This document shows, piece by piece, positions 25,031-28,730 of a DNA stretch of 53,505 bases (positions are counted from its first letter, which is position 1; every line of letters starts with the position of its first letter). The position numbers and the translations under genes were made by a program. The stretch is from Deltaproteobacteria bacterium. Lineage in GTDB: Bacteria > Desulfobacterota > Dissulfuribacteria > Dissulfuribacterales > QOAL01. The notes beneath the pieces were generated by a model. The model ran no database searches. It had not been told where the DNA came from and saw only the letters and a program-made list of their open reading frames with translations. The DNA is taken from assembly GCA_026991135.1 (NCBI GenBank), contig JALXCD010000103.1, positions 1 through 53,505 of the forward strand, written 5' to 3'.

Positions 25031-26305
25031 ATGGAACATATTGAAATAAAGGGTGGACACAGGCTTTCAGGAACAGTCAGAATTAGTGGAGCCAAAAATG
25101 CTGCCCTTCCCATTTTGGCTGCAACCCTTCTCGCACCAGGAAAGTTCCAGCTACATGAGGTCCCTCAATTAGAGGATGTAAAGATATTCTTAAGGCTTTT
25201 ACAAGAACTGGGTGTAAAATGGGAAAGGACCTCGGACCACTCCCTTGAAATTGATTCCTCAGGCCTTAAGAGTTTTGAAGCCCCATATGACCTTGTAAGA
25301 CTCATGAGGGCCTCTATCTTAGTCCTTGGCCCTTTGGTGGCAAGACTTGGAAGGGCAAGGGTTGCCCTTCCAGGAGGATGTGCCATTGGAGCCCGCCCCA
25401 TTGACCTTCATCTCAAAGGCCTTGAGCTTATGGGAGCAAAACTAAAAATTAAAGAAGGATTTGTAGAAGCAAAGGCCAAAAGGCTAAATGGTGCAACTAT
25501 TTATTTTGACATAACCTCTGTAACAGGGACAGAAAATCTAATGATGGCCGCCTCCCTTGCCAAGGGGAAAACCGTCCTTGAAAATGCTGCCAGGGAGCCA
25601 GAGGTCGTTGCCCTTGGAGAGCTTCTTTTGCAAATGGGCGCAAAAATAAAAGGGCTAGGAACTGACACAATAACAATCGAAGGCTCAAAAGAACTTAAGG
25701 CAGTGGATTGGACCATAATACCTGATCGAATAGAGGCTGGAACCTTTTTAATGGCTGTTGGAGCAGCTGGAGGAAAACTTATTATCGAAAATTGCATACC
25801 ATCTCACCTTGACGCAGTGCTTGAAAAGCTAAAAAATGCCGGTCTAAAAATAGATATTATTGACAAGGACAAAATTGGGGTGCAGCGGCGGGGCAAACTA
25901 AAGAGCATTGACATAAAGACCCAGCCCTATCCAGGGTTTCCAACGGATCTTCAGGCTCAGATAATGGTTCTTATGTCAATAGCAAGTGGACTTAGTGTCA
26001 TAACCGAGACCATATTTGAAAATAGATTCATGCATGTTGCTGAACTTAGACGCCTTGGGGCAGATATCAAGGTTGAAGGCAGAAATGCAATTGTAAGAGG
26101 TGTCTCAGAGCTGACAGGAGCCCCTGTTATGGCAACGGATCTTAGGGCAAGCGCAAGCCTTATCCTTGCAGGTCTTAGTGCAAAGGGAACTACAATAATT
26201 CAGGGTCTGAATCATCTTGACAGGGGATACGAACGAATAGATAAAAAGCTTTCAGCAGTTGGAGCAAGGATAAAACGTTTAAAAAATGGCAAAGAAATCA
26301 CTTAA
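25031..26305 (+). CDS. murA: UDP-N-acetylglucosamine 1-carboxyvinyltransferase
   Basis: SGTVRISGAKNAALPILAATLL, GGCAIGARPIDLHL, PGFPTDLQAQ. Confidence 0.97.
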   Translation: MEHIEIKGGHRLSGTVRISGAKNAALPILAATLLAPGKFQLHEVPQLEDVKIFLRLLQELGVKWERTSDHSLEIDSSGLKSFEAPYDLVRLMRASILVLGPLVARLGRARVALPGGCAIGARPIDLHLKGLELMGAKLKIKEGFVEAKAKRLNGATIYFDITSVTGTENLMMAASLAKGKTVLENAAREPEVVALGELLLQMGAKIKGLGTDTITIEGSKELKAVDWTIIPDRIEAGTFLMAVGAAGGKLIIENCIPSHLDAVLEKLKNAGLKIDIIDKDKIGVQRRGKLKSIDIKTQPYPGFPTDLQAQIMVLMSIASGLSVITETIFENRFMHVAELRRLGADIKVEGRNAIVRGVSELTGAPVMATDLRASASLILAGLSAKGTTIIQGLNHLDRGYERIDKKLSAVGARIKRLKNGKEIT

Positions 26306-26313
26306 ATGGTCAA

Positions 26314-27312
26314 ATGAATAGACCAGTTTTAAAAGATTCTTTCGGAAGAGCCATTACCTATCTCCGTCTTTCTATCACCGATAGATGTAATCTGAGATGT
26401 TTCTATTGTATGCCCCAGGCCCAGTTTAACTGGATGCCTCCTGAACATATACTGAGATTTGAAGAAATCATTCAAATTGTAAGGGTATTGGCTCGCATTG
26501 GCATAAAAAAAGTGCGCCTTACAGGTGGTGAACCCCTGGTGAGGAAGGATGCCTTAAATCTTATAAAAAGTGTTTCCAGCCTTGAAGGCATCAAGAAGAT
26601 ATGCCTTACAACAAATGGAATACTTTTGGCAGAAATGGCTAAAGACCTCTTTGAGACCGGCCTTCGCCACATAAATATCAGTCTGGATACCCTCAAACCT
26701 GAAAGATTTGAGACAATCACAGGGAGGGATTTTTTCAAAAGGGTATGGCATGGAATTGAAAATTGCTTGAATCTAGGCTTTGACCCCATAAAGATCAATT
26801 TTGTCATGATGAAAGGAAAAAATGACGATGAGATTACAGAATTTGCAAGACTTTCCCAAAAATACCCTTTGGAGGTCCGATTTATAGAGTTTATGCCAAT
26901 CGGTGAAATGTCAAAGTGGAAAAAGGACCTTTTTATTTCTTCAGATGAGGCTAAGGCCCTTATCGAAAAAGAAGTGGACAGGTTAACTCCACTTGAAAGA
27001 AAAATCGGGGCCGGCCCTGCCGACCTCTATTCATTTAATAATTCACCTGGTAAAATAGGTTTTATCAGCCCTCTCAGTCATAAGTTTTGTTCTAGTTGTA
27101 ATAGGATAAGAATCAGGGCTGATGGAAGACTAAGGCTTTGTCTATTTTCAGATCAAGAAATCGACCTTTTGAGCCTCATCAGAAGGGGCATAAGTGACCA
27201 GGAGCTGACTGAATTTTTTATTGATGTAATTAACAAAAAGCCTGCAAAATATCTTGAGAATAGCCTGCATATTCCCAGTTGTAAAAGACAGATGTCAACA
27301 ATTGGCGGATAA
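26314..27312 (+). CDS. moaA: GTP 3',8-cyclase
   Basis: CNLRCFYCMP, VRLTGGEPLVRKD, FCSSCNRIRIRADGRLRLCLF. Confidence 0.97.
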   Translation: MNRPVLKDSFGRAITYLRLSITDRCNLRCFYCMPQAQFNWMPPEHILRFEEIIQIVRVLARIGIKKVRLTGGEPLVRKDALNLIKSVSSLEGIKKICLTTNGILLAEMAKDLFETGLRHINISLDTLKPERFETITGRDFFKRVWHGIENCLNLGFDPIKINFVMMKGKNDDEITEFARLSQKYPLEVRFIEFMPIGEMSKWKKDLFISSDEAKALIEKEVDRLTPLERKIGAGPADLYSFNNSPGKIGFISPLSHKFCSSCNRIRIRADGRLRLCLFSDQEIDLLSLIRRGISDQELTEFFIDVINKKPAKYLENSLHIPSCKRQMSTIGG

Positions 27313-27330
27313 AAACAACAGGAGGAACGT

Positions 27331-27783
27331 ATGATAATTCTGGAAGATCTCCTTTATACAGAGGAACATATTTGGGTTAAACCTGATAGCGACCAGGAAA
27401 AGGCAATTATAGGTATCACAGACTATGGCCAGGAGAGGATTGGTGCAATTACATCCATTGACCTTCCCAGCCCTGGAGATGAATTTGTAGAGGCCGACTC
27501 CTTTGCCACGATTGAAAACAGTGTTGGGGAGGTTACTGAGCTCCTTTGTCCAATATCAGGAAGGGTCTTGACTGTAAATGAGATGCTGATGGATACACCA
27601 GAGGCAATAAATGATGACCCCTATGATGACGGCTGGATCATGGTTATGGAAATTGCCCAGCCAGAAGAGCTCGATGACCTTATGTCACCAGAAGATTATG
27701 AAAAATACGTGGAAGAGCTCAAAATAAAGGATGAAGAAATGCTTCAAGAGGAAGACGAAGATGTTCTGGAGGTTGAAGAATAA
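27331..27783 (+). CDS. Glycine cleavage H-like (lipoyl-domain fold) protein lacking the lipoyl lysine
   Basis: GcvH pattern (YTEEHIWVKP...IGITDYGQERIGAITSIDLPSPGD...ENSVGEVTELLCPISGRVLTVNEMLMDTPEAINDDPYDDGWIM); lysine position of ESVKA is G66. Confidence 0.85.
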   Translation: MIILEDLLYTEEHIWVKPDSDQEKAIIGITDYGQERIGAITSIDLPSPGDEFVEADSFATIENSVGEVTELLCPISGRVLTVNEMLMDTPEAINDDPYDDGWIMVMEIAQPEELDDLMSPEDYEKYVEELKIKDEEMLQEEDEDVLEVEE

Positions 27784-28730
27784 TGGCAAAGGTGGCCTTT
27801 TTATTCCCAGGGCAAGGCTCTCAATATGTTGGTATGGGGCAAAAACTCCTGGAAGAAGATCCAAGTGCAAATTCTATCTTTGAAGAGGCCGAAAGGATTA
27901 CCAGCATCCCTATAAAATCTCTTTGTCTAAATGGACCCATGGAAGAACTTACAAGGACCGTAAACCTCCAACCCTCACTTACAACACTTGAAATTGCTCT
28001 TTCAAATTCTTTGATGGAAAGGGGAATCAAGCCGGATGCAGTAGCAGGCCACAGTCTTGGCGAATATCCAGCCCTTTGGACATCTGGTGTGCTTAACATT
28101 TCGGCATGCCTTCACCTTGTGAAAGAAAGGGGAAGGCTTATGGACATGGCATCTGAAAAAAATCCAGGTGCCATGGCTGCCATAATAGGAATGGAAGCAA
28201 AGGATTTAAGATCTTTAATAGATGAAATTTCTGAATCTGGGGAAAAAGGCGTTCTAAGCCTTGCAAATCACAACTCAAGGGAGCAGATTGTTGCAACCGG
28301 TGAAAGGGCACTCATAAATGGCCTTTGCAAAAGGGTGAAAGAGATGGGGAAAAGGGCCATTCCCCTAAAAGTTTCCGGGGCATACCACAGTCCGCTTATG
28401 AAGGAAGCTTCAAAGGCCTTTGAAAAGATTTTACAAAATATCACCTTTAATTCACCTAAATTTGCCTTTTACTCCAATGTGACAGCAGCACCAGAAAAGG
28501 ACCCGGAGAAGCTCAAAAAACTTATGGCAGAACAAATCTGTTCTCCAGTCCTCTGGTATGACATCATTAACAACATGGTGTTAGAAGGTATTGATACCTT
28601 TATTGAAGTTGGCCCCAAAAGGGTTCTAGCCAACCTTGTGAAAAAGTGTATTGATCCTCAAGGGGTAAAGATTTTCAATTTTGAATCTCCAGATGACATA
28701 GATGAAATCCAAACTGCAATAAGGAGTTAA
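27783..28730 (+). CDS. fabD: Malonyl-CoA:ACP transacylase
   Basis: FLFPGQGSQYVGMG, GHSLGEYPAL, YHSPLM motifs. Active-site context GHSLGE. Confidence 0.95.
   Translation: MAKVAFLFPGQGSQYVGMGQKLLEEDPSANSIFEEAERITSIPIKSLCLNGPMEELTRTVNLQPSLTTLEIALSNSLMERGIKPDAVAGHSLGEYPALWTSGVLNISACLHLVKERGRLMDMASEKNPGAMAAIIGMEAKDLRSLIDEISESGEKGVLSLANHNSREQIVATGERALINGLCKRVKEMGKRAIPLKVSGAYHSPLMKEASKAFEKILQNITFNSPKFAFYSNVTAAPEKDPEKLKKLMAEQICSPVLWYDIINNMVLEGIDTFIEVGPKRVLANLVKKCIDPQGVKIFNFESPDDIDEIQTAIRS

Follow-up and report, generated by a model that had tools for sequence, protein, structure and literature searches.

A protein with the fold of the glycine cleavage H-protein, but without the lysine that carries lipoate, is encoded in a 53,505-nucleotide stretch of a Deltaproteobacteria bacterium genome (assembly GCA_026991135.1, contig JALXCD010000103.1; this whole analysed stretch is called the window here). 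We use the label gcvH* for this Lys-less GcvH-like protein. It is almost certainly not a lipoyl carrier, and it is well supported that it does some other job than carrying lipoate. A non-carrier role for this lipoyl-domain fold had been proposed in a first-pass annotation of the DNA and is supported by the clade-wide loss of the Lys and by the missing lipoate machinery. Beyond that proposal, we describe here a lineage-wide lack of lipoate metabolism, the loss of Glu14 and a recurrent pairing with fabD.

Results

An H-protein fold without the lipoyl lysine

The gene starts with ATG and lies in a run of genes on the same strand (Table 1). In a profile search PF01597 (GCV_H) matches residues 7-129 (E 7.8e-34, 116.7 bits), and solved H-proteins align across nearly the entire domain in HMMER. 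The AlphaFold model (pLDDT 85, pTM 0.76), which the first pass had suggested as a check, has an H-protein body followed by a long C-terminal helix (120-146) and a tail that is modelled at low confidence. A fold search of the PDB with this model returned 22 matches with E < 0.001, every one of them an H-protein, either free or in complexes. Top matches were solved H-proteins with TM scores of 0.64-0.82 by query length; the best reached about 0.8 by query length and about 0.9 by target length.

Table 1. Positions of gcvH*, its parts and its neighbours in the window
Feature	Position	Strand	Basis
murA (presumed), first gene of the murA-moaA-gcvH*-fabD run	25031..26305	+	synteny
moaA (GTP 3',8-cyclase)	26314..27312	+	TIGR02666, 391 bits, cut-off 284
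Ribosome-binding site AGGAGG of gcvH*	27320..27325	+	sequence
gcvH*, Lys-less GcvH-like protein, 150 aa	27331..27783	+	PF01597, AlphaFold, dN/dS
Ile14 (canonical: Glu of the HEW motif)	27370..27372	+	comparison with canonical proteins and clade
Equivalent of the lipoyl hairpin, residues 58-75, without Lys	27502..27555	+	alignments
Acidic C-terminal tail, residues 130-150	27718..27780	+	comparison with orthologs and clade
fabD (malonyl-CoA:ACP transacylase)	27783..28730	+	TIGR00128, 282.8 bits

The hairpin of gcvH* reads ATIENSVGEVTELLCPISG, with the motif ENSVGEVTELL, while its canonical counterpart reads AVAESVKAASDIYAPVSG. Neither the sequence nor the alignments to solved H-proteins place a Lys anywhere in residues 58-77. 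In these HMMER alignments the hairpin has a one-residue insertion (E-SVK vs ENSVG), and the canonical Lys aligns to V65 or G66 by gap placement; neither of them is Lys. The first-pass annotation had the open reading frame and the GGG codon of Gly66 (27526-27528) right, as well as the lack of any other Lys in the hairpin. Its reading as a Lys-to-Gly exchange holds in that the Lys is absent and Gly66 present, but it is too narrow, because the partner of the Lys is V65 or G66 and the position is variable, with E, D, N, V, S, G, R and others found there across the Lys-less proteins.

A further change concerns position 14. In the pea H-protein Glu14 contacts the loaded lipoyl arm, and this position is Glu in 68% of canonical H-proteins. 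gcvH* reads HIW and thus lacks the Glu of the HEW motif; in the Lys-less clade described below, HEW has become H[LIM]W, with the Glu replaced mostly by a hydrophobic residue. Glu and Lys occur together in 98 rows of our alignment, and Glu without Lys in two rows, both outside the Lys-less clade. The columns that turned variable in the clade lie mainly round the lipoyl site (Glu14, Ser63, the Lys and Ser68 in E. coli order), and the scaffold residues H13, W15, G28, P74, G77, N83, PY and GW are kept. The extra acidic tail seen in the first pass is present (Glu147 and Glu150 are invariant in 22 orthologs) and extends to the clade, where the last 25 residues hold a median of 14 acidic residues vs 7 in Lys-bearing proteins and the net charge is -34 vs -20.

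Orthologs are conserved in the order and under purifying selection

Besides the window's genome, 60 related ones were searched for orthologs. These were found in 24 genomes of the order, comprising 19 of the 20 members of the window's family (own genome counted) and five genomes from three other families, and the gene order murA-moaA-gcvH*-fabD is seen wherever the contig is long enough. In the family member without gcvH* (G015) there is no FabD match either, probably because its assembly misses this stretch. Of the 24 syntenic orthologs, 22 lack the Lys; the two that bear it (L043 with ENMKAEV, L050 with EGRKNF) both belong to otherwise Lys-less groups. Within the genus and for non-saturated comparisons, dN/dS of gcvH* is 0.013-0.064, indicating that the gene is under purifying selection, and a conserved function is very probable. 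A point mutation or assembly error is ruled out by the recurrence in 24 genomes, the clade-wide Lys loss and the low dN/dS; the absence of the Lys is a feature of a clade and not a lone mutation.

A Lys-less clade spans several groups of Thermodesulfobacteriota

An alignment that combined a scan of named genomes, a 198-genome sample of the phylum and the relatives held 214 GcvH-domain sequences, of which 142 have the Lys and 72 lack it; this set has some duplicates and represents the phylum sample by its better-scoring matches only. Trees were built after taking the columns of the hairpin and of Glu14 out of this alignment. Lys-less and Lys-bearing rows separate almost cleanly in a quick tree. 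In a careful tree we recover a clade of 34 rows (UFBoot 94, SH-aLRT 93, with the bootstrap not fully settled), all Lys-less save three. The combination of Lys loss and acidic tail that the first pass had suggested looking for thus marks an existing clade, and its members form a widespread lineage of bacteria that metabolise sulfate and sulfur. They come from several Thermodesulfobacteriota groups, among them cultured Thermodesulfobacterium, a Caldimicrobium MAG, Syntrophaceae-type genomes and the window's order. Four Lys-less rows fall outside it in the careful tree (L102 and L111 from Desulfuromonadales, L061 and L141), and judging from these placements the Lys was likely lost more than once.

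Other departures from the canonical pattern were seen along the way. A Lys-less GcvH of the gammaproteobacterium Motilimonas eburnea (L130:6983-7375, EAEQTNIDIFSPISG) stands among canonical GcvH in the tree; its organism is LipA-positive, and the Lys was lost there independently. Arg occupies the lipoyl position in L195 (ESVRTV) and L185 (ESKRTV), from LipA-positive genomes and outside the main Lys-less clade. Tandem clusters of larger GcvH-like proteins (about 230-310 aa) occur in Thermodesulfobacteriota and in other phyla (L065, L145, L146; G054:C10, G055:C10, G058:C18), some of which lack the lipoyl Lys and have a membrane-like stretch at the N-terminus.

Neither lipoate machinery nor GcvP was detected in the order's carrier genomes

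The P-protein GcvP (PF02347) has no match in the window's genome or in any of the 24 carriers of gcvH*, and LipA gives no match over cut-off in any of them; weak LipA matches in the window's genome are probably other radical SAM proteins. The LplA/LipB-type catalytic domain (PF21948) has no match in the window's genome and none over cut-off in the 24 carriers, with a model that was positive in 13 of 14 control genomes. What the first pass had reported as not nearby, GcvP and a lipoate ligase, is therefore absent genome-wide. A canonical gcvH hidden elsewhere, a possibility that it had also raised, was not found: gcvH* is the only GCV_H protein of this genome, which is 97% complete. Genomes of the same order with a Lys-bearing GcvH largely have GcvP, LipA and the ligase too, as far as incomplete assemblies allow this comparison. 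LipA and the ligase are both absent from 100% complete Thermodesulfobacterium-like genomes, several of which are a single contig. In groups f20 and f60 most members have LipA and the ligase alongside the Lys-less protein.

The window's genome has two matches to Biotin_lipoyl. One is a carboxylase subunit that has an MKM biotin motif and is encoded next to a BirA-like gene; the other protein has two domains and lies in an acetyl-CoA carboxylase cluster. In that cluster, L274:6274-6918 had first looked like a biotinyl protein without Lys, a reading that was dropped because a SLMK motif is present. By eye, L274:2544-6918 (contig C101 of the window's genome) encodes a biotin carboxylase, a 756-aa fused carboxyltransferase and a protein of 214 aa whose two domains are biotinyl-like.

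gcvH* is recurrently paired with fabD

The location between moaA and fabD given by the first pass agrees with the TIGR02666 and TIGR00128 matches; the other neighbours were named by eye, and the gene upstream of moaA is presumed from synteny to be murA. The ATG of fabD overlaps the stop codon of gcvH* (TAATG). This fabD encodes the sole FabD of the genome and keeps the GHSLGE motif. Across our alignment, fabD follows immediately downstream on the same strand at 37 of 72 Lys-less loci vs 2 of 142 Lys-bearing ones, and these two are order orthologs of the window gene that lie in the Lys-less clade. The pair occurs as murA-moaA-gcvH*-fabD (window's order), moaA-gcvH*-fabD (f72), ileS-lspA-lgt-gcvH*-fabD-korA-korB (f28) and gcvH*-fabD-korABC-dtd (Thermodesulfobacterium). 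It hence persists while its flanks vary, from moaA or lgt to unrelated genes upstream and from korAB(C) to unrelated genes downstream.

At roughly half of the Lys-less loci the neighbours are different ones (ileS-lspA-lgt-gcvH*, gcvH*-resB-ccsA or a tonB/pta region), so that FabD is not an obligatory partner everywhere. In seven sister-family genomes of the window's order (L276, L277, L279, L280, L281, L282, L286) moaA is directly followed by fabD with no gcvH*, showing that FabD does not need gcvH*. FabD proteins from genomes with and without gcvH* have no discriminating column and no clear charge difference, and an adaptation of FabD to gcvH* was rejected on these grounds.

Two neighbourhoods deserve separate mention. 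In L062, L174, L186, L173 and L214, from two families, the gene for a Lys-less GcvH immediately precedes cytochrome c biogenesis genes that are resB-ccsA-like. In the sister-family locus L284 (2437-3111, minus strand) the slot that gcvH* has in the window's family, between moaA and fabD, is occupied by a 224-aa open reading frame with a DTGS motif that by eye resembles a retropepsin-like protein.

Discussion

Several protein families come close to gcvH*. With GcvH itself (PF01597, TIGR00527, NF002270) it has the fold and core residues in common, but it lacks the lipoyl Lys, Glu14, GcvP and detectable lipoylation machinery, and has in addition the acidic tail and the fabD neighbour. The equivalog model TIGR00527 is failed (109.5 vs a cut-off of 115.85), while the looser subfamily model NF002270 is passed (127.2 vs 117), as it is by all ten Lys-less members tested; gcvH* is hence likely to be named GcvH automatically. 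NCBIfam has named families for GcvH-like proteins, and gcvH* belongs to neither of the two compared here. TIGR03077 'not_gcvH', a family of GcvH homologs that is set apart from GcvH and presumably chlamydial, from organisms without P and T proteins, gives 63.2 bits vs a cut-off of 144. NF045810 GcvH_rel_desulf, a curated 'GcvH-related protein' of desulfo-type bacteria judging by its name, gives 41.6 vs 150, and 33-54 on ten other Lys-less proteins. GcvH-L is a modified carrier encoded in a sirtuin/macrodomain operon. This GcvH-like paralog of streptococci and staphylococci has a role outside the glycine cleavage system (PDB 5a35; PMC4518038); it appeared among our fold matches and is 22% identical to gcvH*. 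The lipoate-binding protein LbpA of sHdr sulfur oxidation is also a GcvH homolog of sulfur bacteria that acts outside glycine cleavage, and has a strictly conserved Lys and two Cys (PMC6067878). gcvH*, in contrast, has no hairpin Lys, a single Cys (C73) and no neighbour resembling an hdr-like gene, and the missing Lys together with the single Cys excludes that it is LbpA. In the literature that we searched, we found no description of a GcvH without the Lys or of a pairing of gcvH with fabD.

The best explanation, which we put forward tentatively, is that gcvH* is a non-carrier paralog acting as an accessory factor, with FabD as its likeliest partner. In this reading it is an ancient H-protein paralog that no longer carries lipoate and that may serve as a small protein-binding factor. 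It would bind its partner through the H-protein body together with the acidic helix and tail, and the likeliest partner would be FabD (or the FabD-ACP step), the product of the next, translationally coupled gene. There, gcvH* would tune the transfer of malonyl groups into fatty-acid synthesis or fix where it takes place. The link to FabD rests on gene adjacency, and we regard FabD as a possible partner; the two genes may also be neighbours simply because an old operon persists. It seems rather unlikely that a cofactor-stripped H-protein paralog was recruited to dock on FabD as an acidic, carrier-protein-like partner and now helps to gate the malonyl supply of fatty-acid synthesis in lipoate-free anaerobes.

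It is also conceivable, and to be taken seriously, that the non-carrier role has nothing to do with FabD. MoaA or a housekeeping complex might be the partner, or the role might lie in assembly, and the place before fabD, lgt or resB would then be hitch-hiking in housekeeping operons. The three other recurring neighbourhoods in the clade (lgt, resB-ccsA, moaA), the sister-family fabD that works without gcvH* and the lack of covarying FabD columns fit this idea; however, fabD is the commonest neighbour, and the pair outlasts changes on both flanks. The cleft of the former lipoyl-methylamine arm might instead bind a free metabolite, making the protein a sensor or buffer. The fold body is indeed kept, with invariant H13, W15, G28, P74, N83 and GW, but the lipoyl-site residues are now variable and hence offer no conserved pocket there, which makes a small-molecule binder improbable.

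It is very improbable that gcvH* has remained a carrier, with the modification at a different residue or made by an as yet unknown route. Its fold is that of a carrier, and alternative lipoate pathways with LipS1/LipS2 and sLpl exist (PMC10332631). However, the turn has no Lys and none is conserved there in the clade, and lipoylation by another enzyme was rejected, since no ligase-type catalytic domain was found in carrier genomes with a model that performed well on the controls. We give next to no weight to a decaying relic or an artefact of assembly or annotation. The variable former Lys position and the lack of the gene in several sister families could be read in this way, but the 24 genomes, the low dN/dS, the clean reading frames and the 100% complete genomes of a distant group speak against it.

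A non-carrier paralog also bears on the annotation of H-proteins. The name 'glycine cleavage system protein GcvH' that NCBI models give to members of the Lys-less clade cannot be right, and the Lys should be checked where pathway prediction counts gcvH by homology alone. A 2026 study on carbon fixation in Desulfobacterota describes GCSH as widespread and scattered in the tree, with an origin that could not be estimated (PMC12827605). The Lys-less clade may partly explain the scatter described there; a non-carrier paralog mixed with real H-proteins would be a direct and testable explanation. Selection has also kept the H-protein fold in organisms without detectable lipoate metabolism, and FabD is offered as a concrete candidate for its partner.
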